Assembly (NCBI RefSeq): GCF_003390325.1
Contig: NZ_QUOK01000001.1
Coordinates: 248,001-312,000, forward strand
Reading direction: 5' to 3'
DNA length: 64,000 bases
Origin: Rhodohalobacter sp. SW132
GTDB lineage: Bacteria > Bacteroidota > Rhodothermia > Balneolales > Balneolaceae
Part shown: positions 31,025-63,707 of the stretch, in pieces
Layout: every line of letters starts with the position of its first letter
Position numbering within the stretch: the first letter of the stretch is position 1
Program-made: the position numbers and the translations under genes
The notes under the pieces: model-generated
The model's input: only the letters and a program-made list of their open reading frames with translations
Told to the model about the DNA's origin: nothing
Database searches by the model: none

Positions 31025-33364
31025 TCAGGCTTGAACTGATGCTTTTTCGATGTTGACCGCGCACCGTTTATAATCGGGCTGACGGGAGAAGGGGTCTACC
31101 GCATCGCTGGTTATTTTGTTCACAAGATGTTTGGCTGAGTGCATCGTGGCAAAGACCAATCCCTCGCGAATATTGTTGGTAATGCGCGTGACAAAATCTG
31201 CATCACCGCGGCGGCTGTAAACGTTTACCATATCTCCTTCACTCAGTCCATATCGCTGTGCATCGGCTGGGTGAACTTCAAGAAAATCGGTATCTACACT
31301 TTTCAGATCCTCAATTCCCCGGGTAATAGTTTCCGTATGCCAGTGTTCCAGAACGCGGCCGGTGGTGAGTGTCAGCGGATACTCCTCATCGGTCGGCTCA
31401 TAGGGCGGTTCCTGCTCGTGCAGATAGATAATTGCCCTGCCGTCGGGACGTGCATAAAAATCGAGCCGTGCATCTTCATTACGCACCATCGGGTCCGATC
31501 CCGGTACAAATCTTCGGCAGGTTCCGGGGTGATCTTCATCGGGACACGGCCAGAGAATTCCGGGCTGATTCTTCAGACGCTCATAGGTAATTCCTTCAAA
31601 ATTGTAGTATGACTGTCCTGAGATCTTTCTCCACTCGTTCCAGATATCCTCCTGGGTTCGATTTGGGAAGAGATCAGAATGACCAAGGCGATCGGCCAGA
31701 TCGATCAAAATGTCGAAATCGCTGCGGGCTTCGCCCTGCGGTTCGGCCAGTTTGGGTACATAGTGATATCTTCGTTCCGACTGGCTGAACACGCCGCTCT
31801 TTTCCACCCACATCGCCGCGGGGAGAACTACATCAGCATACTTTGTGGTTTCGGTGGGATGAAATGCGTCAGCAACCACCACAAACGTTCGCTCCATCGC
31901 CTCGCGATAGGGTAAAATGTTGGGAAGGGAGTGAATGGGATTGGTGGACATAATCAGCGTGCAGTCCACATCTCCTGCATGCATCGCCTGGAAAAGCGCC
32001 ATGGTATGATACCCGGGATTGGGGCTGATTCTGCCCTCCGGCACATTCCACAGCTCCTCCATTTCACGCCGGTGATCCGGGTTGGCGACGGCCCGTCCTG
32101 TCGGAAGTGCATGAGCCAGTGCTCCCGTATCACGGATTCCACCGCCGGCATTCGGCTGTCCCGTCAGTGAAAACGGAGTAGCTCCCGGCCGGCCGATCTG
32201 TCCTGTGAGAAGGTGCATCGCCATCACCAGCCGGTTGGAAGCTGTACCTTGTGTCTGCTGATTCAGCCCCATCGTCCAGAAACTCATCGTTGCCGGCGCA
32301 TTTCCGAACCGGAAAGCCGCTTCACGGATCTGCTCCGGAGAGATACCGCAAGTGGCCGACGCCTGCTCAGGTGTGTAATTCTCAAGATTAGCCCTGAAAT
32401 GCTCCAGTGTGATCTGATTACCTCCCTCCTGGAATCGCAGATAATCCTCGATCATCTCCTCATCAATCACCCCGCGGCGGAAAAATTCATAAATCATGGA
32501 GTTGTAGAGGGATACATCGGTGCCGGGACGAATTTGCAGGTGGAGATCGGCCCGCTTGGCGGTGTTTGTTTTTCGCGGATCTACCACGATAATGGTTGTG
32601 TTGGGATTGGCGCGCTTTCGGTCCAGTACCCGTTCCCAGATAATGGGGTGGCAGTCTGCCATATTCGATCCGGTAATGAAAAAGCAGTCGGCGTGATCGG
32701 TATCTTCGTAGCAGCCCATCGGTTCATCCTTTCCAAAAACCGAGGTATATCCCACAGCGGCAGATGCCATACAGAGGCGCGGATTCCCATCCACATTATT
32801 GGTGCCGATTCCTGCTTTGAAAAGTTTATTGGCCGTATAACTCTCCTCAGTAAAGAGCTGTCCGCTCCCGTAGTAAGCCACACTGTCGGGGCCTTTCTCT
32901 TCAATGGCCCTGTTGAAGCGGGAGGCGATCAGCTCCATCGCTTCGTCCCAGCTCGCGCGCTCCAGCTCGCCATTTTTGCGGATGAGAGGATAGTGAAGCC
33001 GGTCATCGGCGTAAAGAATCTCGCGGTTTAAAATTCCTTTAATGCAGAGTCGTCCGCGGTTGTGGGCATCGGGGTCACCTTTCACATCCACCACCCGTCC
33101 GTCGTTCATGCCGATCAATACGCCGCACCCGGTTCCGCAAAACCGGCAGACTCCCTGGTGCCAGCTGTCTACATCAATCACGGGCTGGCGTTCCCAGAGC
33201 TCGCCACAGCCAGACATAAGCGACCCGGTAAACACGCCGGCAGCCGATAGCGATGCAAGGCGCATAAACTCTCTGCGGGTAAAGCCTAAATATTCATCTG
33301 AAGGGGAATCGGGTGATTTTGATTGAGTGTCGCTTTTTGGGGTTCCATTTTTCTTTTGTTTCAT
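31025..33364 (-). CDS. napA: Periplasmic nitrate reductase catalytic subunit NapA-like (Mo-bisMGD)
   Basis: 779 residues from ATG 33362-33364. A Tat signal is seen at 'GFTRREFMRLAS' (Arg30-Arg31), so the enzyme is exported folded; 'LMSGC' (Cys53) just after it could alternatively be a lipid attachment site. The 4Fe-4S cluster ligands are C73, C76, C80 and C107 ('CRFCGTGCGVLIG ... GRLCIKG'). Cys198 in 'GNPRLCMASAAVGYTSVFGKDEPMGCYED' is the expected Mo ligand and matches NapA strongly, as distinct from formate dehydrogenases. It reduces nitrate to nitrite in the periplasm. The cluster lacks napB, napD, napG and napH within the window. moeA and mobA are divergent from it. Confidence 0.9.
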   Translation of the reverse strand: MKQKKNGTPKSDTQSKSPDSPSDEYLGFTRREFMRLASLSAAGVFTGSLMSGCGELWERQPVIDVDSWHQGVCRFCGTGCGVLIGMNDGRVVDVKGDPDAHNRGRLCIKGILNREILYADDRLHYPLIRKNGELERASWDEAMELIASRFNRAIEEKGPDSVAYYGSGQLFTEESYTANKLFKAGIGTNNVDGNPRLCMASAAVGYTSVFGKDEPMGCYEDTDHADCFFITGSNMADCHPIIWERVLDRKRANPNTTIIVVDPRKTNTAKRADLHLQIRPGTDVSLYNSMIYEFFRRGVIDEEMIEDYLRFQEGGNQITLEHFRANLENYTPEQASATCGISPEQIREAAFRFGNAPATMSFWTMGLNQQTQGTASNRLVMAMHLLTGQIGRPGATPFSLTGQPNAGGGIRDTGALAHALPTGRAVANPDHRREMEELWNVPEGRISPNPGYHTMALFQAMHAGDVDCTLIMSTNPIHSLPNILPYREAMERTFVVVADAFHPTETTKYADVVLPAAMWVEKSGVFSQSERRYHYVPKLAEPQGEARSDFDILIDLADRLGHSDLFPNRTQEDIWNEWRKISGQSYYNFEGITYERLKNQPGILWPCPDEDHPGTCRRFVPGSDPMVRNEDARLDFYARPDGRAIIYLHEQEPPYEPTDEEYPLTLTTGRVLEHWHTETITRGIEDLKSVDTDFLEVHPADAQRYGLSEGDMVNVYSRRGDADFVTRITNNIREGLVFATMHSAKHLVNKITSDAVDPFSRQPDYKRCAVNIEKASVQA

Positions 33365-33570
33365 CCGCAAAATCAAGTTGGCAAGTGTTACAATGAATTA
33401 AAACAGTATACTTTTTGAGATGATCTCTTACAAATAGAAACGGTTATTTATATTCATTTTAAGATTGAAGGTGTAATAGATAGCATTTGCGATCAGTTAC
33501 AGAATTCCCTTTTATTCCACACTAAATCACTTCATTTTATAAAGCCTAACACTTGACGCAACCCTACCCT

Positions 33571-34776: not shown

Positions 34777-35351
34777 AATCCGGACGCAAACTCTATATCC
34801 TTTGCGGGGGGCAATCACGCAGAATGGGCCGCGACAAGGCGATGGTTGAGTTGCGTGGGGAAAGACTGCTGGATCGTCAAATTAATAAAGGGGAGAACTA
34901 TTTTGATGAGGTGGTGTTGCTCTGCGGACAAAACAGCTACCCGGTGGAGAACCGCCAATTGACCGACCGGGTCGAAAATGCGGGGCCGCTGTCCGGGATT
35001 CTTGAAGCGTTAAAAGATGGCGCTGAGAATTCCTTAAAGGAAATCGCAATTCTTCCAGTGGACCTGCCGGGGATTTCGGAAGATACAATTCAGCAATTGG
35101 CTTTATCAAAGTTAAATGAATCTGATCAGGCTCTTCTGATAAAATCAGGCGAAGACCTTCAGCCGCTTGCCGGGGTCTATTCTGTGGATCTGGCAAGTGA
35201 ACTTGAGCACTTTCTAAAAATCGGCAACCGGATGGTTTTTGCGTTTGTGAACGGTTTAGAATATTCAGTAATAGAGGTGGGTCAGGAAGAGTTAAAAAAT
35301 CTCAATCAGCCGGATGATGTTCGCTGGTTTGAAAAGAGGGATATGAACTAA
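34773..35351 (+). CDS. mobA: Molybdenum cofactor guanylyltransferase MobA
   Basis: 192 residues. It transfers GMP to Mo-molybdopterin, giving the bis-MGD cofactor that NapA needs. The nucleotide-binding loop 'LYILCGGQSRRMGRDKAMVEL' (consensus LAGGxSxRMGxDK) and the Mg-binding 'AILPVDLPGISEDTI' are present. Start and stop overlap moeA by ATGA, indicating translational coupling. Placing moeA and mobA next to napA is consistent with the island carrying its own cofactor supply. Confidence 0.92.
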   Translation: MKSGRKLYILCGGQSRRMGRDKAMVELRGERLLDRQINKGENYFDEVVLLCGQNSYPVENRQLTDRVENAGPLSGILEALKDGAENSLKEIAILPVDLPGISEDTIQQLALSKLNESDQALLIKSGEDLQPLAGVYSVDLASELEHFLKIGNRMVFAFVNGLEYSVIEVGQEELKNLNQPDDVRWFEKRDMN

Positions 35352-35546
35352 ATACCATAAACCAATCTACTCTCGTACAGGTGCTCATCACCGGGACGCA
35401 AGGTGAAAACAGCTCAGCTGTTGCAGAGTGTATGAACAAGTATGGAAGATGTCATAGTGGAGTGTGGGATAACGATACAAAACCATAAAACTAAATGCCT
35501 TAAACCAATCTGATCTATCAACCTTCAGCTTGTTTTCAAATATGCA

Positions 35547-35960
35547 CTATCTATTTCTGTAAGACACTACCCGCTGCCAGATCAATCCGGCAAAGATCAG
35601 AATACTGATCGCTAACAGGGATCGACCGATGAGGGCATTAGCAGAGATATTTGGTGAAAAAGAAGAGAGGACAAGAAAAATCAACCCGATATTAAAGAGG
35701 AACACCATTACCCATGCGGGGAGAACCGGACCGCGGCGCTCACCTTCCAGTTTTTTGGGAAAGATCCAGTATGCGGTTCCGATCACAAATTGTACCAGCC
35801 AGCCCCAGATCGCCAGCTCGTAGTGAACAGGAAGCAGCGACCACAATGCTGGATGCAGATCGGCTGCTTTGTGAGTCAATATCAAACCGCCCGCCATTGC
35901 GGAGACCAGCAGCCAGATCATGGAGATTCGGATCATCCAGATGGAGGGCTTTGGTATCAT
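35547..35960 (-). CDS. Four-helix membrane protein, heme-copper-oxidase-half-like (paralogue of next gene)
   Basis: 137 residues with four predicted helices. The central pattern 'PVHYELAIWGWLVQFVIGTAYWIFPKK' (His, GW, then G-x-x-Y-W-x-F-P) resembles the His-containing helix of heme-copper oxidase or NnrS-type proteins. The gene is preceded by a paralogue with the same layout and overlaps it by ATGA (35957-35960). Small proteins of this kind occur in denitrification loci, but I know no demonstrated role. A heme-binding function is only a suggestion, as a single conserved His is visible. Confidence 0.6.
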   Translation of the reverse strand: MIPKPSIWMIRISMIWLLVSAMAGGLILTHKAADLHPALWSLLPVHYELAIWGWLVQFVIGTAYWIFPKKLEGERRGPVLPAWVMVFLFNIGLIFLVLSSFSPNISANALIGRSLLAISILIFAGLIWQRVVSYRNR

Positions 35961-36388
35961 GTCCGGCTCCGTTTTCGTTCATTACGAGTCTGCAATCGCG
36001 GCCAGATTTCTGCGATATAACAGATTGTGGCAGCTACCTGCAGGAGGGATGATGTAAGTGCCAGGATTGTAGCCAGAGGTCTGTGCTGAATCAGCGGCAA
36101 AAAAGGTTCCATCAGGAATCGGATCATCAAACCAGAATTTAGCAGCCAGAAGGTGAGCCAGCAGAGAACCGATTCGCGTTTCTTTTTATCGCGATGCTTT
36201 CGCGGAAACAACCAGATTGATACCCCGATGATCACCTGTGTAATCCATCCAACTACCAGCATGTGCCAGTAGACCGGCAGCAACAACCCGGAACTGACAG
36301 CAGGAATCTCCGAAACAAGTGCCAGCACCACCCCGGTGATGAAGTAAATTATTCCGGCTTTTATGAACCAGCGTGTTACTCTTGGCAT
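35957..36388 (-). CDS. Four-helix membrane protein, heme-copper-oxidase-half-like
   Basis: 143 residues, four predicted helices. 'PVYWHMLVVGWITQVIIGVSIWLFPRK' aligns with the same segment of the downstream paralogue; the His is shifted by one residue between the two. The basic loop 'KHRDKKKRES' after helix 2 also recurs in weaker form. The two genes overlap by 4 bases and probably form a heterodimer or arose by tandem duplication. The nearby CopD-like gene upstream makes a three-gene membrane set on the minus strand, separated from it by a hairpin. Confidence 0.6.
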   Translation of the reverse strand: MPRVTRWFIKAGIIYFITGVVLALVSEIPAVSSGLLLPVYWHMLVVGWITQVIIGVSIWLFPRKHRDKKKRESVLCWLTFWLLNSGLMIRFLMEPFLPLIQHRPLATILALTSSLLQVAATICYIAEIWPRLQTRNERKRSRT

Positions 36389-41744: not shown

Positions 41745-41867
41745 TTAAAAATAAACTACATTACATGTGGATAAAAGATTTAAATCGTGCTAATTCAGCC
41801 GGACAGTACGCTTTTTTTGAAACTTATTGTATCACTTACTAATTGTGAACCATACACTTACAAACCC

Positions 41868-43556
41868 ATGGAAAAGAAACTTACAACTAACAATTATGCA
41901 AAACTGGGACTGGCAACCGCCCTGATTTTCATAATATCGATTATGGCAGCAGTGGAAACAGCACTTGCGTGTCCGGCGTGTAATGCGCTGTACAAGAAAC
42001 AGATTGAGGAAGATATGAAAGGCACGCTCGTCGGTAAAGAGCTGATGGCTGCCATGCAGGCGCAGGCAAACCTGCCGCTTGAGTTTTCTGAGGCAACCAG
42101 CCACCTCTTCAGAAGTGAGCAAAACACCGCATCGCAGGATCACGATTTTATCGAGGTCATTGAACGGGATGCGAACCTTTCCATTCCGGCAACGGGGTAT
42201 GTAGATCAGGAAGTGGAGGCGGATGTCAGCTTTACCGTTGAACTGGATGAAGGACTGGCTTACCTGGGTAACGGTGTAGTGTACGACGGTTTTCGAACGA
42301 ATCGATCTGTGCCGGGCCCGACCATTCGGGTAACCGAAGGAGATATTGTTGAGATTGTAGTTCAGAATAACGGCAGGATTCCCCATGGAGCTTCTATTCA
42401 TGCAGCCTATACACAGACATCTAAATATCTTGGTGAAATACCGGCCGGTCAGTCAAAATCAGTGAAGTTCAAAGCAACCATCCCTGGTATTTATATGTAC
42501 CACTGTGCACCGGGCGGCCATGCAATTCCAATGCATGTGATGTTCGGCCAGTACGGTATGATCATTGTTGAACCGGCTGAACAGAAGTTTAAGCTTGAGG
42601 AAGAGCTGGGCCACGGACCGGATTTAGAGATCGACCTGATTCAGCATGAATGGTATTCCAGTGGAAAAAATGCTGTAGAAGGGAATCCCACCTATGTAAC
42701 GTTTAACGGCGAGATCTTCAAGTATGTTAAAGAGCCTATCACAGCTAAACCGGGCGATTATGTACGGATCAACTTTATGAATGTAGGCCCGAATCTGCTC
42801 TCCACATTTCACCTTGTGGGAATCATATGGGATTACGCGTACTGGCAGGGCCATCCCGAAAATGTTTTGGTCGGTGGACAAACGGTTACAGCCGGACCAT
42901 CTGATACCTTTGTGATTGAGTTTCGTGTTCCGCCGGACGAAGGTGCCTACACCATGCTTTCTCACGCTGTGGGATCAACCAGCCGGGGGGCAATCGGACT
43001 GCTGGTAGCCGACCGGGATGCCGATACTCCGAAGAGAATTGAAGCAACGGGGCCTGTTTACTCAGAGGAAGAACTGGCTGAATTGATGGAAGATGCGAAC
43101 AGAATTATGTCACCGTTCAGGGCAGGAACACCGGACATCGATCCGCCACACACCTATGGTCCCGAAACGAATGAGGTGACGGTACGAATTATCGGAAACT
43201 CCTATTACCCGAAAACCCTGGAAATTGATCCGGGAACAAAAGTAACCTGGATCAATGAAGATGTATTCAGTTACCTGGCAGGTGAGTTTTCCGGAATTCA
43301 TAATGTGGTGTCGACAGAAGGACCCACAAACCTGAACTCCCCGATGCTGGCTCATGCTGAGACCTGGAGCTACACATTTGAAGAGGAGGGTGAATACAGC
43401 TACATTTGTACGCCGCACCCCTATATGGAAGGAATAGTACGGGTGCGTGCAACAGACTCAGATCGTGATATGGCCTCGTTTATGTGGACGACAATTCCGG
43501 CCCTGCTTGCACTATTCATCGCCATTGCGGCATGGAAACGTAAACCGGAAGAGTAG
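41868..43556 (+). CDS. nirK: Copper nitrite reductase NirK-like, with extra C-terminal cupredoxin and membrane anchor
   Basis: 562 residues from ATG 41868. A signal helix (about 15-33) is followed by 'ACPACN' (C35, C38; not a heme motif). Two NirK cupredoxin domains span about 75-390. Type 1 copper ligands H173, C213 and H223 are present, but the axial position has Gln228 instead of Met. Type 2 ligands H178, H212 and H366 are present. By my hand alignment the catalytic Asp is Ser176 and the catalytic His is Ile320. A third cupredoxin (about 440-535) has an intact type 1 set H478, C514, H517, M520. A C-terminal helix (about 540-556) anchors it. The expected reaction is nitrite to NO in the periplasm; the substitutions make this less certain. 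Confidence 0.8.
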   Translation: MEKKLTTNNYAKLGLATALIFIISIMAAVETALACPACNALYKKQIEEDMKGTLVGKELMAAMQAQANLPLEFSEATSHLFRSEQNTASQDHDFIEVIERDANLSIPATGYVDQEVEADVSFTVELDEGLAYLGNGVVYDGFRTNRSVPGPTIRVTEGDIVEIVVQNNGRIPHGASIHAAYTQTSKYLGEIPAGQSKSVKFKATIPGIYMYHCAPGGHAIPMHVMFGQYGMIIVEPAEQKFKLEEELGHGPDLEIDLIQHEWYSSGKNAVEGNPTYVTFNGEIFKYVKEPITAKPGDYVRINFMNVGPNLLSTFHLVGIIWDYAYWQGHPENVLVGGQTVTAGPSDTFVIEFRVPPDEGAYTMLSHAVGSTSRGAIGLLVADRDADTPKRIEATGPVYSEEELAELMEDANRIMSPFRAGTPDIDPPHTYGPETNEVTVRIIGNSYYPKTLEIDPGTKVTWINEDVFSYLAGEFSGIHNVVSTEGPTNLNSPMLAHAETWSYTFEEEGEYSYICTPHPYMEGIVRVRATDSDRDMASFMWTTIPALLALFIAIAAWKRKPEE

Positions 43557-51195: not shown

Positions 51196-51525
51196 ATGAG
51201 CAGAGAATTACACATAAGGCGTGAGGCAGCCCGGAGGTTTTGGGGCGTTATCGATCCCGAGTTGGGCGTAAACATTGTAGATCTGGGATTGATTTACCGG
51301 ATGTTCATGAGGGATGACGATACGTTTGTTGTGGAATATACCACCACAACAGCGGGCTGCCCTATGCGTCGTTATTTGCAGAGAAAAATTGAAGAGGCCC
51401 TGCAATCCATCGAGGAAATTGAGAAGTTCGAAACGAAACTGGTTTTTGAACCGGAATGGTCTGTGGAGATGATCGTGGAAGGGGTAGAGTTTTTCTCCGT
51501 TCCGCCACCTATGATGTCGGGTTAA
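51196..51525 (+). CDS. DUF59/MIP18-type metal-sulfur cluster assembly factor
   Basis: 109 residues, cytosolic. The pattern 'FWGVIDPELGVNIVDLGLIYRMFMRDDDTFVVEYTTTTAGCPMRRYL' is the classic DUF59 fold (VxDPExxxxxVDLGLI ... GCP) with its single conserved Cys. Family members (SufT, PaaD) help mature Fe-S proteins. Its TAA overlaps the ATG of the following NnrS-like gene (TAATG, 51523-51527), so the two are coupled. Placed beside NO-linked genes, it may assist Fe-S repair or assembly under NO. Confidence 0.88.
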   Translation: MSRELHIRREAARRFWGVIDPELGVNIVDLGLIYRMFMRDDDTFVVEYTTTTAGCPMRRYLQRKIEEALQSIEEIEKFETKLVFEPEWSVEMIVEGVEFFSVPPPMMSG

Positions 51526-52628
51526 TGAACATGAATAAAACAAAACTGCTGGATCTGTTTTTTGGCATCCTGCTGGTTACGGCCGGAATGGGTCTTCTGT
51601 TGGGACTCTACACCGGTTTGATCCGTATGGGCCTTTCGATGCCTACGGCATTTGAACTGGACGCGATGGCCCACGGGCCACTGATGATTAATGGGTTCCT
51701 GGCTACACTGATTTCGCTTGAACGCGGCGCTGCGCTTGAAAAATTGTGGAGCTATATCGCCCCATTCTCATTTTTCCTGGCAACTCTTCTGCTGATGACC
51801 GGCTACGTCTATGTGGGTGGATTTTTTCTGCTCCTCGGCTCCCTGTTTTTGGTCATCATTATGGGATATCTCTGCTACTTGCAGTCGGTGGTGCATCACT
51901 ACATTATGGCTGCCGGCGCTGTTACCCTGCTGATCGGAAATGTTCTTTTTATTCTGAATGCACCCGTTTTTGAACTGATCGGCTGGTGGATCGCTTTTCC
52001 GCTGCTCACCATTTTCGGGGAGAGGTTGGAGATGAACCGGATTATGCGTCCGCCCAAAAAAGCGCAGCATCTGTTTGCCGGATTGATTACAGCGTGGATT
52101 ATTTCGCTTGCCATTATCCATTGCCACCGGGATTTCGCCTGGCTGGTCAACTCCCTGTTTTTGATCGGAATTGCCGTCTGGCTAATCCGGTTTGATGTAG
52201 CCCGGCGAACCATAAAATCGCGAGAATGGACCCGCTACAGCGCCTGGTGCCTCCTCACGGGATATGGCTGGCTGATCATTGCCGGAATTCTCGGGATGAT
52301 CTACGGCTTGCCGGCAGCGGGATATATTTATGATGCGCTTCTGCATATCTTTTTTGTGGGATTTGTCTTCAGCATGATCTTTGCCCACGCTTCGATCATT
52401 ATCCCGTCACTAACTGGGGAACTGGTTCCCTGGAGCCGATACTTCTACATGCCGTTTTTTCTTCTCCACGGTTTTCTGCTGATTCGTGTAGTGGGCGATC
52501 TTCTGTATGTAACCGAAATCAGAATCTGGGGAAGTTATGGCAACGTCGCGGCCATTTTGCTCTTTCTTGGCGGAATTCTCTTTCAACTGACCTTTAGACA
52601 ACCGACTCCGGCCTTTTCGCAAACATAG
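51525..52628 (+). CDS. NnrS-like multi-spanning membrane protein
   Basis: 367 residues from ATG 51525 (a second ATG at 51531 is equally possible); a longer open frame to 51456 lies within the preceding gene. Eleven or twelve helices are predicted. 'MAHGPLMINGFLATLISLERGAAL', 'LHIFFVGFVFSMIFAHASIIIPSLTG' and further His in helix ends ('HHYIM', 'HCHRDFAW') match the NnrS family, heme- and copper-containing membrane proteins that protect against nitrosative stress. A role in dealing with NO is expected from family and context; biochemical activity of NnrS remains poorly defined. Confidence 0.8.
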   Translation: MNMNKTKLLDLFFGILLVTAGMGLLLGLYTGLIRMGLSMPTAFELDAMAHGPLMINGFLATLISLERGAALEKLWSYIAPFSFFLATLLLMTGYVYVGGFFLLLGSLFLVIIMGYLCYLQSVVHHYIMAAGAVTLLIGNVLFILNAPVFELIGWWIAFPLLTIFGERLEMNRIMRPPKKAQHLFAGLITAWIISLAIIHCHRDFAWLVNSLFLIGIAVWLIRFDVARRTIKSREWTRYSAWCLLTGYGWLIIAGILGMIYGLPAAGYIYDALLHIFFVGFVFSMIFAHASIIIPSLTGELVPWSRYFYMPFFLLHGFLLIRVVGDLLYVTEIRIWGSYGNVAAILLFLGGILFQLTFRQPTPAFSQT

Positions 52629-55862: not shown

Positions 55863-56393
55863 TTATTCTTCATTACCATACCAGCGATAGCCCTGCTGAT
55901 CATTAAATTTGAGTACGATCCTGTCTCCCTTCTCAATCTCTACTTGTCGTTTCTGGCTATGATTCCATTCAACTTCACCATCAATGTGGTTTCCAAATTG
56001 TACTTCAAGTGTATGGCTTCCGGGATCGAGCGGAATGTTGATGATACCGTTGCTGTATCCCCTTCGGAAAATTCCACTGGGACGGTATCGGTCTTCAAAT
56101 AACACAGTTCCGGTATCTGAAACCCGGACAACCACATCGGATCTGCTTTCAACCTGTTGTTCTCCCCTCCGCTGCATATGATCGAGCCGTCCTCCTTCAT
56201 CCTGTTCCTTGGCGTAGATGGGTGCACCTTCCAATTTAAAAGAGATGATCAATTCTGATTCCCGTTCAGGCAGCGGCATATCGGCAGAGCTGAGCAAAAC
56301 CGTGATTCCGGATAGTAAACCCAGGACTAAAAATCCAGCGGCGAGCTGCTTCCAAATCGATTGGGACTGATTGTTAACGGTTCTCTTTTTCAC
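55863..56393 (-). CDS. Membrane-anchored protein of unknown function, NO-reductase operon end
   Basis: 176 residues. One helix at about 15-36 anchors it, and the rest (about 40-170) is predicted beta-rich: 'SELIISFKLEGAPIYA', 'RSDVVVRVSDTGTVLFEDRYRPSGIFRRG' and 'IPLDPGSHTLEVQFGNHIDGE' look like a small beta-sandwich. No recognised family. Its start overlaps the end of the cytochrome b fusion gene by 20 bases, making it the last gene of that minus-strand operon; it may be an accessory subunit. Confidence 0.55.
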   Translation of the reverse strand: MKKRTVNNQSQSIWKQLAAGFLVLGLLSGITVLLSSADMPLPERESELIISFKLEGAPIYAKEQDEGGRLDHMQRRGEQQVESRSDVVVRVSDTGTVLFEDRYRPSGIFRRGYSNGIINIPLDPGSHTLEVQFGNHIDGEVEWNHSQKRQVEIEKGDRIVLKFNDQQGYRWYGNEE

Positions 56394-58008
56394 GGGATCC
56401 CCTGAATTGCTGAGCTTCGGTTAAAAATTTGCTGAAATCGGGTTTATCCAGTTTCAGGTATAGAATTCTGTCCACTTCATACCGGTCTTTGCGAAACTCG
56501 GGATGGCGCTCACCTTCAATGCGGTCGCCGAGCCAATCGGCTCCCAGCCTGAAATCGGGATCCGATTCGCACCCGGAAACGAGTACTCCCTCGGCACCTT
56601 TTTTCAAAGCTCTTTCAATCAGTGTAGGGTGTACCCAACCGGCGCAGGGCAATGTAGCAACCAGGTAGCCGGGCATCTCTTTACACTCACCGGTTTCTGA
56701 GTCGATTGTAAGCAGGCTGCCGGCGCTATTTCCGCAAACAAACGCGATAAACTGGCCTTCCAGAGTGCGATTCTCCTCATCCAGCCACTTATCAATTTTG
56801 CTGCGAATCTCCCACGGTGAAAGGTTCGGATATTCAACCGCAACCGGGTCACAGGACCCTACACAAATTCCGCATGAAACGCAGATCGACGGGTCGATAT
56901 TTGCTACAAACTCGCTCTTTTTGGGATTGCCCTTTTCACGCGGCACCATGCTGATGGCGTTGTAGGGACAGTCGTGGAAGCATTGCGTACAACCGTTGCA
57001 TTTAATTTCATCGATAACCGGCTGGGTGTCTTCTTTCTGCCGCTTCATGATCCATGGGACACTTGATACGGCGATGAAACCTACAAGAAAGATGAGCCAG
57101 AGAGTTCCGCCTTGCAGCCTTTCAGTTAAAATAAGTGGAAGAAGGTAGAAGTAATCAATCGTTACATTTTCCGGAGCAGACATCAAGTCAGCCGGCCCCT
57201 CAACATCGGCAGGGAACAGAAGGGATACGATGACAAGTGAGCCCAGAAGCAGAATGGAGAAGTTTCGGTTTGTAATGAATGCGGGTTTATTTAATCGGGC
57301 TACATGCAGCCAGATCGCTATACCGAACGCAATCGGGATTAGCATATGCATAAAAAAGACGATCAGGAACAGAACAGAGTTGAAGCTGTCATCCGTCAGG
57401 AATGATGCTTTCAGAGGTTCAGCAAAAATGGGGAGCACATCAATCATTTTGGCGGTACCGGTTGCGATCATGGCGGCCCGTTCATCCCAAACCAGCCAGT
57501 AGCCGAGCCAGCCGTCAAACCAGATAAGCAGAACGGCAATAATTCCGGTAATCCAGGCCAGCCAACGCGATCCGCTAAAGCGCCCGGCAAAGAAAACTTT
57601 AAAGGCATGAAACAGCACAAACAACATGAAGGCATCGGAGCTGTATCGGTGCAGGCTGCGTATCAGCTCGGCGGTGTAGGGCTTGTCACTCATTGAAACC
57701 ACAGAATCATAGGCATAGTGAACGCTCGGGCTATACCAGATCAGCAGTGCGAACCCGGTGATAACCGCCACAACAAACATAAAGTTTGCGATCGCACCCG
57801 CCTGGATAAAGGGATGGTAGTTCTCCGGGATATATCGAAGCGTTACACCATCCAGTTTTCGGAACCAGCGATCAACTCTGTCTAAAAACCGGCGCCCGCG
57901 CAGGGAGGAATCAGGCACCGCCTCGGAAGCTTTTACGATATTGGTTTTGAAATCCTGCCACTCGTAAAAGGTGTTGTTGGTTTTTTTGTCGTTGGAGTTG
58001 TTGCTCAT
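56374..58008 (-). CDS. Cytochrome b6-like / 2x[4Fe-4S] ferredoxin / MvhD-type fusion protein
   Basis: 544 residues from ATG 58006-58008. Residues about 60-245 form a cytochrome b with heme ligand pairs H120/H134 and H221/H235. A further helix lies near 300-320. A double ferredoxin domain follows, with C337, C340, C343, C347 and C376, C379, C382, C386. The last 120 residues ('FIAFVCGNSAGSLL', 'ATLPCAGWVHPTLIERALKKGAEGVLVSGCESDPDFRLGADW') are the MvhD/FlpD-type hydrogenase iron-sulfur domain, in which two of the usual cysteines seem replaced (the CxxC and GCxxxxC patterns are incomplete). It likely passes electrons between quinol, Fe-S centres and the downstream heme-copper enzyme; direction and donor are unknown. 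Confidence 0.8.
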   Translation of the reverse strand: MSNNSNDKKTNNTFYEWQDFKTNIVKASEAVPDSSLRGRRFLDRVDRWFRKLDGVTLRYIPENYHPFIQAGAIANFMFVVAVITGFALLIWYSPSVHYAYDSVVSMSDKPYTAELIRSLHRYSSDAFMLFVLFHAFKVFFAGRFSGSRWLAWITGIIAVLLIWFDGWLGYWLVWDERAAMIATGTAKMIDVLPIFAEPLKASFLTDDSFNSVLFLIVFFMHMLIPIAFGIAIWLHVARLNKPAFITNRNFSILLLGSLVIVSLLFPADVEGPADLMSAPENVTIDYFYLLPLILTERLQGGTLWLIFLVGFIAVSSVPWIMKRQKEDTQPVIDEIKCNGCTQCFHDCPYNAISMVPREKGNPKKSEFVANIDPSICVSCGICVGSCDPVAVEYPNLSPWEIRSKIDKWLDEENRTLEGQFIAFVCGNSAGSLLTIDSETGECKEMPGYLVATLPCAGWVHPTLIERALKKGAEGVLVSGCESDPDFRLGADWLGDRIEGERHPEFRKDRYEVDRILYLKLDKPDFSKFLTEAQQFRGSREKENR

Positions 58009-58060
58009 GTTCGATTTGTTGGTAGGTTTAGTGAAAAGGCAAAAGTGAAAAGGCAAATAC

Positions 58061-58171
58061 AGACCTGCCAGAATACGATAGTACCTGGCAGAGCCTGGAT
58101 TTATGCCCATTATTCGTGGAAAAGACTCTGCCAGGATCCACTGAAATGCGCAGCGGAACTCTGGCAGGTCT
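58061..58171. repeat. Nested inverted repeats of the CCTGCCAG type
   Basis: Outer arms AGACCTGCCAGA (58061-58072) and TCTGGCAGGTCT (58160-58171); inner arms CCTGGCAGAG (58084-58093) and CTCTGCCAGG (58126-58135). The whole 111 bp can fold as a double stem. It lies between the SCO gene and the fusion gene on the minus strand. A direct 14-base repeat (GTGAAAAGGCAAA type, 58031-58058) adjoins it. Confidence 0.85.
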
Positions 58172-58241: not shown

Positions 58242-59180
58242 TCACTCCAAAATTTCAGTTAATTCTTTCGGTTTTTCTTCCTCGATCAACAGCTGGAGAG
58301 CCTGCCCCATCCACTCTTCCTGTATTTCTCCCAGCGTGAACCGAAAGGCAATTTTGCCCTGCCTGTCAATAATGTAAAACAGGTTAACGTGATCCATCAC
58401 GCCGGTTTCAGCATCCCTGTACCTGGAGACGTTCAACTTGTCGAGAACTTTGTCTACAGTAGCGGGATCACCAGTGAGCATGTGTGAATTTGGATTATCG
58501 AGCTGGTAAAACCCTGCCACACGTTTCAGAAGATCGGGCCTGTCTCTTTCCGGCTGCATGGTGATTGCCATCAGCGCTACCTCTTCCTGTTCATCTGGAT
58601 TTAAACGATCCAGCACACGCTTTACCTGGTCCAGAATCATAGGACAGGTGTCGGCGCAGGTTGCGTAAACGGAGGTCAGAATTACCACATCACCCCGATG
58701 GTCATCCAGACTGATTTTTTCTTCATTTTGATTGATCAGTTCAAAGCTCGGTGGAGTTAAAGCAATTCGGAGTGTATTCGGGCGAAATTCAAAATCTTCT
58801 TCTGTTGGAACTTCATACATCAGGAGAAATGAAGCGCCGATTACCATTACCAGTGCAAACGAAGATGCGGCATACCTGGTGATGATCGCAGGTTTGGCAT
58901 AGACCTCTTTGAGCGGTTCAATCCAAACAAAGAGGATCACACCAACAAGCATCAGCGGATTGAATGTGAACATTGCAAAGTAGATCCACTCCATTGAACC
59001 GGTTTCGGGATCGTATCCAAAGCACCAAACTTTGAAGTCTTCGGCAAAGGCACCCCACGTGGAATCGGTGACGGGTACAAATGCCATAACCATAATCATG
59101 ATCCAGGACAGAAACATCGTACTGATCATAAAAGAGGGAAAGCGCCAGGATGTGAAAAAGTTTTCGATTCGTTCGATCAT
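58242..59180 (-). CDS. SCO1/SenC-type copper chaperone with three N-terminal helices
   Basis: 312 residues. Helices at about 16-37, 66-88 and 103-122 precede a thioredoxin-fold SCO domain with C175 and C179 ('YATCADTCPM', the CxxxC copper site) and the conserved His264 ('GVMDHVNLFYIID'). SCO proteins load copper into CuA of subunit II or act as thiol reductases. The extra membrane region is unusual; ordinary SCO has one anchor. It belongs to the NO-reductase-like operon, 56 bases after subunit I, separated by a palindrome. Confidence 0.88.
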   Translation of the reverse strand: MIERIENFFTSWRFPSFMISTMFLSWIMIMVMAFVPVTDSTWGAFAEDFKVWCFGYDPETGSMEWIYFAMFTFNPLMLVGVILFVWIEPLKEVYAKPAIITRYAASSFALVMVIGASFLLMYEVPTEEDFEFRPNTLRIALTPPSFELINQNEEKISLDDHRGDVVILTSVYATCADTCPMILDQVKRVLDRLNPDEQEEVALMAITMQPERDRPDLLKRVAGFYQLDNPNSHMLTGDPATVDKVLDKLNVSRYRDAETGVMDHVNLFYIIDRQGKIAFRFTLGEIQEEWMGQALQLLIEEEKPKELTEILE

Positions 59181-59235: not shown

Positions 59236-60996
59236 TTAACTTATATGCCACAGATCCGTCAGGGCAGCCCAGTTTGCGAAGTAGTAGATCGCAAAACTGA
59301 GAAGGAAAATGAGCACCAGAACAATAGTTCCGGGTGTTTTTACATGCTCGTAATCTTTCCCTTCCTCTTCATAACCCCTGCTGATCAGATCGTCAGTCAT
59401 TTTCTGCTCCCGGTCGTTTTGCCAGGTTGGCATTTTCTTGCCCTTGAGCGACGGGCCGAAGAAAACGGCTGCGACAATCAGTACGATAAATAGCAGCAGG
59501 CCGATGAAGGCGATGACGCCACCAACCCCGAGAACACCCAGGAAGAAATGGGCAATTGGGTCGAAGCCGGTTTCCAGGTTCGCCCCGCTAAAATCACTGT
59601 CATAGGTCCGGCGTGGTACACCGTAAGTGCCTGCAAATGACATGCCCAGGGACATCACCACAATTCCACCGCCGAATAACCAGGGTTGAATGCGTGCCAG
59701 AGTTTTCATGTAGAAATCTTTCTGGAAAATCAGCGGAACCAGGTAGTAACAGAGCCCCATAAAGGCAAGGGTTGTACCTCCCACAACAGTGGCGTGAAAG
59801 TGGCCGGGAATCTTGAGAGTATTGTGAGCCATGATGTTGATCTGCTCTGTTCCCAGTGTCACACCGGTGATTCCGCCGATAAACCCGAAAATAATCACGG
59901 ACAACGCAACTGCTGAGAAACCGGGGTCTTTCCAGGGAAGTTTGGCGAACCAGCCAAAAATCCCTTTGGTGTAGCCTTTCCGGCGCATTGCTACCTCCAT
60001 CGATGCCGGTACGGTGTAGCCGTGAATCATGGATGCAAGTACGGCAAGATACATCGCGTAGGAGGTGTTCCAGATCTTCCATTCGGCGCTGAAACCAGGA
60101 TCAACCAGGAGATGGTGGGCTGCAGCAAGATTGATAAACAGGATATAAAGAATGAATGCCCCGCGACACACCGTTTCGTTAAGAGGTTTGGCCCCCGTAC
60201 TCATCGTGGCAACAAAGTACCATACGGCAACCATTGCGGCCACATTGATCTGCTGGGAGTGATGGCCCAGCCCCCACCAGAAAAGCCGGTAGACACCGGG
60301 ATCCATCATCTCCATCCAGCCCATAGACCAGAAAAAGGTTGGGACCAGCGCAATGGCTCCGTGAACCAGGGCTACCACCGCGATGATGGCAGCCGTTGCA
60401 GCCCCGAAAGTGACCAGCGGCATGGAGCCTTCGTAGGTTTTATTTTTTTTGGCGATGTAGAGCGTGGCAAAGAAATTAAAACAGACGACCAGAGCTCCTA
60501 CTGCAAATAGGATGATTCCGAGATAGAATATCGGATGGGCTTCGAGTGGCGGATAGGAGGTCAGCATCACATCGGCGCGGCCATCCAGGATGATGTAGTT
60601 GGTAAGGATAGCGCCCGCCGCCATAAGGGCAAGTGATACATGGGCCAGCTTTTTGGAAAACATTTTGGTGTTAAGCAGCGTGGTGCTGGCAAAATAGAGA
60701 ATGGCCATCTCGAAAAAGATAATCCAGAATACCAGCATGTTTACCCCGTGAAGGGTCAGCATCCGGTAATACCAGATATCATTCAGAAGCATGATGTTGG
60801 ACCATCGCGTAAGCGCTAAGGAAATTGCCGCCACAGCACCTATAAGCAGAAATATAACCGCCAATACAGCATTAACCTTTACAAAAAATTCAGCTTTTGT
60901 GAAGATGGATAAGCCGGTTGTGTCACATATTCTATGCGCTGCGGATTTAACCAGGCTGCTATCAGTTTCAGATATAGTAGTAGATTCAGTACTCAT
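59236..60996 (-). CDS. Heme-copper oxidase-family subunit I with Tyr to Gln change: probable NO reductase
   Basis: 586 residues from ATG 60994-60996 ('MSTESTTISE'). It has at least twelve helices. Low-spin heme ligand His83 is in 'LTLHGVNM'. CuB ligands are His245 and the pair His294-His295; the high-spin heme ligand region is 'GHFHATV' (H399, H401). The residue four after His245, where A- and B-type oxidases carry the cross-linked Tyr, is Gln249 ('GHHSQQIN'). Without that Tyr, oxygen reduction is unlikely; NO reductases of the heme-copper superfamily often lack it. The spacing of 49 residues between CuB histidines fits the B-type line. Partners here are a CuA subunit II and SCO. Confidence 0.83.
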   Translation of the reverse strand: MSTESTTISETDSSLVKSAAHRICDTTGLSIFTKAEFFVKVNAVLAVIFLLIGAVAAISLALTRWSNIMLLNDIWYYRMLTLHGVNMLVFWIIFFEMAILYFASTTLLNTKMFSKKLAHVSLALMAAGAILTNYIILDGRADVMLTSYPPLEAHPIFYLGIILFAVGALVVCFNFFATLYIAKKNKTYEGSMPLVTFGAATAAIIAVVALVHGAIALVPTFFWSMGWMEMMDPGVYRLFWWGLGHHSQQINVAAMVAVWYFVATMSTGAKPLNETVCRGAFILYILFINLAAAHHLLVDPGFSAEWKIWNTSYAMYLAVLASMIHGYTVPASMEVAMRRKGYTKGIFGWFAKLPWKDPGFSAVALSVIIFGFIGGITGVTLGTEQINIMAHNTLKIPGHFHATVVGGTTLAFMGLCYYLVPLIFQKDFYMKTLARIQPWLFGGGIVVMSLGMSFAGTYGVPRRTYDSDFSGANLETGFDPIAHFFLGVLGVGGVIAFIGLLLFIVLIVAAVFFGPSLKGKKMPTWQNDREQKMTDDLISRGYEEEGKDYEHVKTPGTIVLVLIFLLSFAIYYFANWAALTDLWHIS

Positions 60997-61013: not shown

Positions 61014-61538
61014 TTATTCTACGATTATTTTTCCGGTCATCCGGTGATGCCCGATTCCGCAAAATTCATTGCAGATAATGCTGAACTCCCCGGCGGTGGT
61101 GGGCGTAATCGTCATCACATAGTCGTAACCCGGTAATACATGGAGATTCATATTTAGTGGAATCAGTGAGAAGCCGTGCTGCAGGTCTGCCGAAGAGATG
61201 TGAATCCGGTAGGTTTGATCCTTCTTTAGTTTTAAGACCGGGTACCACTCCCACATCTGCCCGAGCAGATAAGCGTCGCCGCCGGGTGCGGGCTCAACGA
61301 TCGGTATGTTGTTCATTTCACCAACTTGATTGGTTTCAATGAACTGATTTACACGCTGAATGAAATCGGCCGGTTCAACTTGGTAGGTTTCACTTGGGGC
61401 GTTCTGCTTCCCCTGGAAGTGCCACCAGGGCATTGTTACCGACATCACCAGGCACCAGGCCAGTGCCAGGCCTACCCACAGGCGTTCAGCTCCCGTAGGT
61501 GTTCGATACCAGTTTCCTTTTGGATGGAATATGCTCAT
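61014..61538 (-). CDS. CuA-type subunit II of the heme-copper NO-reductase-like complex
   Basis: 174 residues. One N-terminal helix (about 20-38) anchors a cupredoxin domain in the periplasm. The CuA ligands are complete: His121, C156-x-E158-x-C160, His164 and Met167 ('IICNEFCGIGHHRM'). It has one transmembrane helix, as in B-type oxidases. It would take electrons from a periplasmic donor and pass them to subunit I, whose start lies 17 bases downstream. It is followed on the minus strand by SCO and the cytochrome b fusion. Confidence 0.92.
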   Translation of the reverse strand: MSIFHPKGNWYRTPTGAERLWVGLALAWCLVMSVTMPWWHFQGKQNAPSETYQVEPADFIQRVNQFIETNQVGEMNNIPIVEPAPGGDAYLLGQMWEWYPVLKLKKDQTYRIHISSADLQHGFSLIPLNMNLHVLPGYDYVMTITPTTAGEFSIICNEFCGIGHHRMTGKIIVE

Positions 61539-61708: not shown

Positions 61709-63127
61709 TTATCTGTTTTGACTGTTGGTATAGGATTTCACAACGATATAGATAAAAAGTATCCCGCCGGCCATAGCAAGCAGGCCACCCAGACTCATCA
61801 AGCCAAGTCCCGTTAGAGCTTCGACGGAGTATATATTTTGATCCTGTCCAAAAAGTTTGCGGCCCATTCCCATCATGCCGGCGATTGCAAAACCGATCAC
61901 AAACATCGTTTGGCCAAAACCAAACAGCAGGGGCTGGAGCTTCATAAGCCGTATCGATTTGCGGGTTGTTAACTGATAACCATACTCCTTCAACAGTATG
62001 AATACCATCACCATATAGGCTACCGTAACCCCACCGAGGGATGCGTGATAGTGTGCAGGGATAAGTGTGCTGGAACCGCGTATCATCGCGCCGAGTACAA
62101 AGCCGGTGACGGTAAGAAGTGCGCTTACCAAAAATCCATTGAAATAGAGGCTGCGGAACGGATTTTTCTGCTTGTTTAATCTGCTGTAGTGTAGCCAGAT
62201 AGCCCTGGAGCCCAGGATGAGATAGATTGTTACGACAGGAAATATGAACCATCTCATCAACTGGGTGTAGCCGCTGTAGTAGAGTTGGTCACCGGTGCCA
62301 TTCAATAATAAAATAGGTGACAGCACAGCCGGTACCGCTAAAACGGATAGCAGAATAAAATTCACACGCTTTCCGACGGGTATCTTGCCGGTGATTTTGT
62401 AGATCAGAATCAACCACACAGTGAGCATCCCAAGGACATTGGCAAATTGCAGAATGTGACCACCACCCCACATGATCAACTCATAATAGAGCGTTCGATC
62501 AATTGTGTTGGATGTCAACATCCAGGAGATCATAAAGGTAAAGATTGCAGCCATAACCACGATGCCGGCGTAACGAATTGCAAGCTGGGCAGCAGGGTTA
62601 AAAAATGAGGGCGGCGATTCCGGTTTGGGAATTGAGAAAACAGAAAGATTCCCGGGAAATGTGATAAGGATACCTGCGCTAAATACTAAAAGGCCGCCAA
62701 TGAAGACGGGATGGTCAAGTACCGGAATGTAGTTGGCCAGAATGGGTTCGGCTCCCTTGAAAAAGATGGAAGCGATCATAAGAAGTAATCCACACAGGGC
62801 AAGCTTTGTACCAGCAGCCATCTGAAGGAAACTTACAGAGCGGTTTAACGAAACATGGAGAACTGAGAGAAACGCATAAAACCACACAACAAGGGCAAAA
62901 TCAACATGTAATACCAGAGATTTCCTTGCAAATAGAGGATCTCCAATAAACTCAGCGGTTCCCGGAGTTCGGGCAATAACAATAACAGCTGAAAACAGAC
63001 CGGATAGCAGAAGACTGAATAATCCAATCTTCAGCCAGCTGCGGGAATAGTCCTTTTCTGAAGCCAGAGCGGATGCCTGCCAGATTTCAATCGGTAAGGA
63101 GATCGCTTTTTTTACAATGGGCAGCAT
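61709..63127 (-). CDS. Heme-copper-oxidase-like membrane protein lacking the CuB His pair
   Basis: 472 residues, about twelve helices. It aligns with the oxidase subunit I pattern at His74 ('LHVDFALVVWFYAFLSVLH'), His224 ('MWGGGHILQFANVLGML') and 'PAHYHASLGG' (H359, H361). At the expected place for the CuB His pair (about residues 272-275) it has 'LLLN', and four after His224 it has Phe228. Heme binding could thus be kept while copper is not. I take it as a paralogue with changed function, such as a NO-binding or assembly subunit, or one of the unusual NO-reductase types. It is the first gene of the operon, divergent from the Rrf2 gene. Confidence 0.75.
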   Translation of the reverse strand: MLPIVKKAISLPIEIWQASALASEKDYSRSWLKIGLFSLLLSGLFSAVIVIARTPGTAEFIGDPLFARKSLVLHVDFALVVWFYAFLSVLHVSLNRSVSFLQMAAGTKLALCGLLLMIASIFFKGAEPILANYIPVLDHPVFIGGLLVFSAGILITFPGNLSVFSIPKPESPPSFFNPAAQLAIRYAGIVVMAAIFTFMISWMLTSNTIDRTLYYELIMWGGGHILQFANVLGMLTVWLILIYKITGKIPVGKRVNFILLSVLAVPAVLSPILLLNGTGDQLYYSGYTQLMRWFIFPVVTIYLILGSRAIWLHYSRLNKQKNPFRSLYFNGFLVSALLTVTGFVLGAMIRGSSTLIPAHYHASLGGVTVAYMVMVFILLKEYGYQLTTRKSIRLMKLQPLLFGFGQTMFVIGFAIAGMMGMGRKLFGQDQNIYSVEALTGLGLMSLGGLLAMAGGILFIYIVVKSYTNSQNR

Positions 63128-63266: not shown

Positions 63267-63707
63267 ATGTTTTTAAACCAGACCTCCCACTATGCGCTTC
63301 GTGCTATGACCGGGCTTGTGATATCAGAAACAGATGAACCGGTGGGTTCAAAAAGGCTGGCTGAAGTGACAAGTGTCCCCTCTCACTATTTGTCAAAGAT
63401 TATGCGTAAAATGGTTAAGGCGGGATATGTTGAATCCAGAAAAGGGCACGGCGGCGGATTTACTTTGAAAGTAGCTCCTGACAAAATTCGAATCATTGAT
63501 GTGTTGAATGCATCCGGATTCGATCTGGAGGATCAGCCTTGTGTATTTGGTTTTGACAGTTGCGGAGATGATAATCCTTGTGCCCTCCATCCCGTATGGA
63601 AGCAATTGAAAACCTGTTTTACTGACTGGTCACATAATACCACCTTAGAGGATATTCGAAGAGAAAGCAGTAAACTGGAGGATGTAAAAAGGTGGGTAAA
63701 AGAGTGA
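63267..63707 (+). CDS. Rrf2-family regulator, NsrR-like
   Basis: 146 residues. A winged-helix N-terminus 'MFLNQTSHYALRAMTGLVI' and 'VPSHYLSKIMRKMVKAGYVESRKGHGGGFTLKVAPDKI' are typical of Rrf2. Three cysteines at 92, 99 and 105 ('PCVFGFDSCGDDNPCALH', C-x6-C-x5-C) closely match the Fe-S ligand positions of NsrR and IscR. NsrR loses repression when its cluster reacts with NO. Placed head to head with the NO-reductase-like operon and flanked by palindromes, it is the likely local NO sensor. IscR-type sensing of Fe-S status cannot be excluded. Confidence 0.88.
   Translation: MFLNQTSHYALRAMTGLVISETDEPVGSKRLAEVTSVPSHYLSKIMRKMVKAGYVESRKGHGGGFTLKVAPDKIRIIDVLNASGFDLEDQPCVFGFDSCGDDNPCALHPVWKQLKTCFTDWSHNTTLEDIRRESSKLEDVKRWVKE

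Follow-up and report, generated by a model that had tools for sequence, protein, structure and literature searches.

A putative eNOR-type nitric oxide reductase encoded beside a CuB-less heme-copper paralogue in Rhodohalobacter sp. SW132

Introduction

A gene in a 64,000-nucleotide stretch of the Rhodohalobacter sp. SW132 genome (contig NZ_QUOK01000001.1, positions 248,001 to 312,000; hereafter, the window) encodes a heme-copper subunit I with glutamine in place of the active-site tyrosine. This raises the question of whether the enzyme reduces O2 or NO, and to which family it belongs. A sequence-only reading of the window had proposed an NO reductase (NOR) of either the eNOR or the CuA-NOR kind. 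The eNORs of Rhodothermus marinus and other organisms are reportedly treated by Hemp & Gennis 2008 and Murali et al. 2024 (doi 10.1073/pnas.2316422121).

Subunit I and Its Active Site

The gene belongs to a minus-strand operon transcribed in the order paralogue, CuA subunit II, subunit I, SCO and cytochrome b/two [4Fe-4S]/FlpD. The features of this locus are as follows:

61709..63127 (-), CuB-less heme-copper paralogue, 472 aa, first gene of the operon
61014..61538 (-), CuA subunit II, 174 aa, matching Pfam COX2 and NCBIfam CoxB
59236..60996 (-), very probable eNOR subunit I, 586 aa, assigned by COX1 match, residues and clade
58242..59180 (-), SCO-type copper chaperone with an N-terminal TM region, CxxxC (175/179) and H264
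56374..58110 (-), protein with cytochrome b, two [4Fe-4S] and an FlpD/MvhD domain, assigned by domain matches and conserved residues
55863..56393 (-), TM segment and extracytoplasmic domain in a second frame, overlapping the cytochrome b gene
63267..63707 (+), Rrf2-family regulator with C92, C99 and C105, divergent from the operon

The subunit I reading frame runs from an ATG at 60996 to a stop ending at 59236 and has no internal stops. Its product matched Pfam COX1 (1e-70), and no NCBIfam model matched it at or above the cut-off. The low-spin heme ligands are H83 and H401, H399 is the ligand of the high-spin heme, and H245, H294 and H295 are those of CuB. In an L-INS-i alignment of eNOR, B-type, A-type, C-type, cNOR and qNOR sequences, these six metal-binding histidine columns were common to all groups. 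The reading frame and the alignment confirmed the earlier claim that the CuB and heme histidines are intact and that Gln249 replaces Tyr at His245+4.

Every one of the 29 eNOR rows has Gln at column 249, where the B-type (9/9) and A-type (4/4) rows have Tyr. At the TM7 column where C-type oxidases carry their tyrosine (I288 here), 28 of the 29 eNOR rows have Ile and the remaining one has Leu, so the active-site tyrosine is not supplied from TM7. A B-type oxygen reductase is expected to have Tyr in TM6, or in TM7 as in the C-type; subunit I has Q249 in TM6 and I288 in TM7. Furthermore, Q248 and Q249 were both present in 83/83 homologues from many phyla (the genome-scan matches together with the window protein), and Gln249 therefore cannot be put down to a chance substitution or to a sequencing error. 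Within the tree set, E96, Y284 and H325 were also invariant in the eNOR rows only.

According to PMC8756737, eNOR has one predicted proton channel. At the residue level, one putative K-type channel is present here, comprising Y260, S322 and H325 of subunit I, all invariant in the eNOR rows, together with E18 of subunit II, which lies near the start of a TM helix and is kept in 90% or more of 80 sequences. The ba3 oxidase positions are partly kept, with Y250 (alignment numbering) replaced by V256 and T318 by H325. Confidence in the predicted model of subunit I is low for parts of the active-site region (residues 381-394, pLDDT <50).

Family Assignment

Among solved structures, the closest to subunit I was Thermus ba3 subunit I (~1e-46), with A-type structures far behind (~1e-7). 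The protein shares with the Thermus thermophilus ba3 oxidase its fold, metal ligands, Y and S at the K-channel positions and the CuA subunit, but the cross-linked Tyr of ba3 is Gln here, and identity is only ~25-33%. This structural match (E ~1e-46), the retained K-channel-like residues and the NCBIfam and plasmid records that label homologues as oxidases could be taken to indicate a B-type oxidase that has lost its tyrosine and still has O2 reduction as its main job. Against this stand the Gln found without exception among the homologues and the phylogeny.

The tree for the family call was built without the CuB-less paralogues, from eNOR, B-type, A-type, C-type, cNOR and qNOR rows. All 29 sampled Gln-type rows formed one clade with support of 100/99, apart from each of the other groups, including the Tyr-bearing B-type. 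The protein was checked for a position well within an O2-reducing clade and for a Tyr contributed by another helix, and neither was found. The clade includes the R. marinus protein (L152) and plasmid-borne proteins of Defluviimonas, Thermomicrobium roseum and Thermus thermophilus, which supports the membership in a Rhodothermus-type eNOR group suggested in the sequence-only reading. The Sinorhizobium meliloti NorB and Cupriavidus necator qNOR fall outside it. The eNOR and B-type groups appeared as sisters with weak support (54/32), and so the B-type origin of eNOR rests on similarity and on the literature (PMC11388526).

According to Table A4 of PMC8756737, the active-site residue is Gln in eNOR, Asn in CuA-NOR and sNOR, Asp in gNOR, Glu in cNOR and qNOR, and Tyr in oxidases. 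The cNOR and qNOR enzymes (NorBC, NorZ) share the reaction and the heme-copper superfamily but have the active-site Glu and no CuA, whereas the window enzyme has a CuA subunit and Gln. The bNOR or CuA-NOR of Bacillus azotoformans is closer in kind: like the window enzyme, it is a CuA-bearing, oxidase-like NO reductase with a non-Tyr active site, and it is also a B-type relative. However, the residue given for CuA-NOR here is Asn (PMC8756737), and judging by this residue we regard such an identity as extremely improbable. Of the two families originally proposed, eNOR is thus supported by Gln and by the clade, and CuA-NOR is not.

Based on the above results, subunit I is very probably the catalytic subunit of an eNOR, that is, a B-type-oxidase-like heme-copper NO reductase, and its NO-reducing activity is predicted from sequence. 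The window protein is a further member of a family already known and biochemically characterised. PMC11388526, citing Murali 2024, counts eNOR among four NOR families with biochemical characterisation and describes it as NO-reducing. A broader role or a different substrate has been considered for homologues of eNOR (PMC8756737). Nitrite reduction to N2O supports the growth of a verrucomicrobial isolate that has NirK and eNOR (PMC13274419). The R. marinus enzyme is 44% identical to subunit I over the whole length and lacks a paralogue or cytochrome b/FeS neighbour, so the function is transferred over some distance.

Denitrification Genes in the Window and Genome

The host genome (5.08 Mb, 98% complete), which its nearest relatives mark as Balneolaceae-like, contains, in addition to the eNOR, one A-type and one B-type oxidase, both with Tyr. 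NosZ is also encoded in the genome (891 bits), and two other denitrification genes share the island with the operon:

31025..33376 (-), NapA/NasA-like molybdenum nitrate reductase, NapA model 3.8e-188, below the curated cut-off
41787..43556 (+), NirK-type copper nitrite reductase with a C-terminal cupredoxin domain

The NirK-type protein matched Cu_nitrite_red at 8e-39, below the curated cut-off, and its C-terminal domain is amicyanin/plastocyanin-like (amicyanin, 5.8e-18). The presence of Nap-like, NirK and NosZ proteins in one genome suggests full denitrification.

Whole-genome searches with NorB and qNOR queries, the latter run without a positive control, detected no classical cNOR or qNOR. 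A PF00115 genome scan had controls but missed the paralogue, and a very divergent NOR could escape it. As far as these searches detect, the absence of NorB/NorC noted earlier for the island holds across the whole genome, and the eNOR is the sole candidate NOR detected for the step from NirK to NosZ. With a denitrification island, no other NOR found and Tyr-bearing A- and B-type oxidases already at hand, the view of subunit I as mainly an O2-reducing oxidase becomes highly improbable.

The Rrf2 regulator has a Cys spacing like that of Fe-S Rrf2 regulators, e.g., NsrR, and an Rrf2 gene was found near the eNOR in 26/69 loci. The window also contains genes for a cytochrome c'-like protein, a globin and a hemerythrin. 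These neighbours would fit an eNOR serving mainly for NO detoxification at low O2 rather than for respiratory energy conservation, a role that is compatible with the eNOR assignment. We consider this emphasis rather unlikely, given the Nap-like, NirK and NosZ set and the conserved proton-channel-like residues.

A broken NorB was considered at 35343-36382, where PF00115 fragments with stops were found. The reading frames show two intact 4-TM ORFs, and there is therefore no classical-NOR pseudogene there. These are tandem related 4-TM proteins of ~137-143 aa (35550-35960 and 35960-36388, minus strand) with a weak COX1/NnrS-like resemblance. Separately, 51456-52628 encodes an NnrS-like 12-TM protein with no Pfam or NCBIfam match, which matches an ORF near a NOR gene on pHG1 (L165:35871-37184) with 154 bits.

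Subunit II and Accessory Proteins

The full CuA subunit and the SCO gene ascribed to the operon were verified at 61538-61014 and 59180-58242, respectively. The CuA site of subunit II is complete (H121, C156, E158, C160, H164 and M167), and 90% or more of 80 sequences retain its ligands.

The cytochrome b/FeS/FlpD protein contains H154, H168, H255 and H269, i.e., two bis-His pairs for two hemes b, and eight Fe-S Cys. The gene stops at 56374-56393 (minus strand), where the domain encoded at 55863..56393 takes over in an overlapping frame, whereas close relatives such as L156, L070, L071 and L129 have a single ORF of ~720-735 aa with this domain as its C-terminal portion. Here the gene may be genuinely split, or a frameshift or an error of assembly may have divided it.

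The window enzyme shares with the R. marinus and other eNORs the Gln for Tyr, the QQ motif, the three CuB histidines and the adjacent CuA subunit II. In the R. marinus locus only subunits II and I stand together, without a paralogue or a cytochrome b/FeS neighbour. Unlike R. marinus, the clade of the window adds SCO, the cytochrome b/FeS/FlpD gene and, in most loci, the CuB-less paralogue.

The CuB-Less Paralogue

The first gene of the operon, which lies outside the gene covered by the sequence-only reading, is the most unusual part of the operon. A PDB sequence search with its product gave no match, and the likeness to heme-copper proteins came from a fold search: the predicted fold is that of a heme-copper subunit I (pLDDT 92), with Z ~30 over ~420 aligned residues at 3.3 A against oxidase subunits I (VIA-align). 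Across 51 sequences H74, H224, H359 and H361 do not vary, and both heme sites therefore seem to be intact.

Only one CuB histidine (H224) is kept, and the HH of TM7 is replaced by S270-P271. The TM7 pair was replaced in all 16 paralogue rows (S/A/G, then mostly P), and in the alignment neither the Tyr/Gln at +4 nor the K-channel residues are retained. With both TM7 CuB histidines missing, the protein cannot hold a normal heme/CuB site. In the tree, the paralogues form their own clade (100) beside eNOR; for a split before the eNOR diversification versus one inside the larger clade of the window, the AU test gave p 0.56.

For the accessory proteins (the paralogue, cytochrome b/FeS and SCO), the most likely roles are to join the enzyme, to feed it or to help in making it. 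The paralogue may act as a structural or electron-transfer partner, as an NO-binding regulator or as an assembly factor. We tentatively suggest, at somewhat less than even chance, a larger eNOR complex in which the paralogue would be a diheme pseudo-subunit and the cytochrome b/FeS/FlpD protein would feed electrons from the quinone pool or the cytoplasm. In such a complex the paralogue would possibly be a heterodimer partner or an electron wire, and His224, left without its CuB partners, might even serve as a ligand of the former high-spin heme.

Proposed Function

The reading best supported for subunit I is that it catalyses NO reduction in the same way as other heme-copper NORs. Electrons would pass from a putative periplasmic donor to CuA of subunit II, then to the low-spin heme and on to the high-spin heme/CuB, where two NO would be converted into N2O. 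The Q248-Q249 pair would stand in for the cross-linked tyrosine with which oxidases cleave O2. Protons may be drawn from the cytoplasm along a conserved polar K-channel-side path (Y260, S322 and H325 of subunit I; E18 of subunit II), and NO reduction may thus conserve energy. In the host genome, the eNOR would link NirK, the NO producer, to NosZ, the N2O consumer. The conserved bis-His pairs, eight Fe-S Cys and FlpD domain suggest that the cytochrome b/FeS/FlpD protein may deliver electrons from quinol or a cytoplasmic donor, or may act with SCO in copper-site reduction during assembly.

Since none of the NCBIfam NOR models recognised the protein and related records carry oxidase annotations, eNOR genes are easily filed as cytochrome oxidases. 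Consequently, some genomes with NirK and NosZ that seem to lack a NOR may in fact belong to complete denitrifiers and be sources of N2O. The linked CuB-less paralogue provides a concrete test of the reuse of a dead heme-copper subunit, and its linkage also bears on whether the eNOR here takes electrons by a route other than cytochrome c.

Distribution across Genomes

The 80 retrieved loci came from Balneolota, Bacteroidota, Verrucomicrobiota, Myxococcota, Planctomycetota, Gemmatimonadota, Spirochaetota and others. The paralogue adjoins the eNOR in 52 of the 69 loci with enough upstream sequence, and all five operon genes are present in 42/58 fully covered loci. Among 388 Verrucomicrobiota genomes, the paralogue was found in 8 and a close eNOR in 9, with both co-occurring and adjacent in 8/8 (Fisher p 7.6e-16, uncorrected for relatedness). 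Among 59 relatives, the paralogue and a close eNOR were found in the same 6 genomes, side by side. A tblastn search of plasmids with the paralogue gave no match.

When 25 eNOR-bearing genomes were searched whole, several had no paralogue orthologue, and in one Planctomycetota genome the paralogue was unlinked. The paralogue is therefore optional for eNOR generally and characteristic of most of the branch of the window; if R. marinus is typical, it is not required for NO reduction as such. The literature searched, with Murali 2024, the main eNOR paper, outside it, yielded neither a CuB-less heme-copper paralogue beside a NOR nor a description of the five-gene arrangement, for which a prior description is possible. 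The arrangement with the CuB-less paralogue may be an undescribed variant.

Gemmatimonadota loci and one Acidobacteriota locus (L132, L135, L137, L140-L142, L146 and L148) have no paralogue, and their cytochrome b/FeS gene is divergent, upstream of the CuA gene. The subunit I ORFs of Myxococcota-like and Planctomycetota loci (L080, L083, L084, L109-L113, L119, L121 and L125) stop early (...AW). In seven early-stop loci the last TM helix (TPGT...YYFANWKALADVW) lies in another frame just downstream and is probably a separate small gene, whereas in the window this helix is fused to subunit I. Heme o synthase genes stand directly 3' of the eNOR in Defluviimonas (L158, 9721-10602) and Thermomicrobium (L159, 9823-11625), hinting at heme o or a in these two eNORs.
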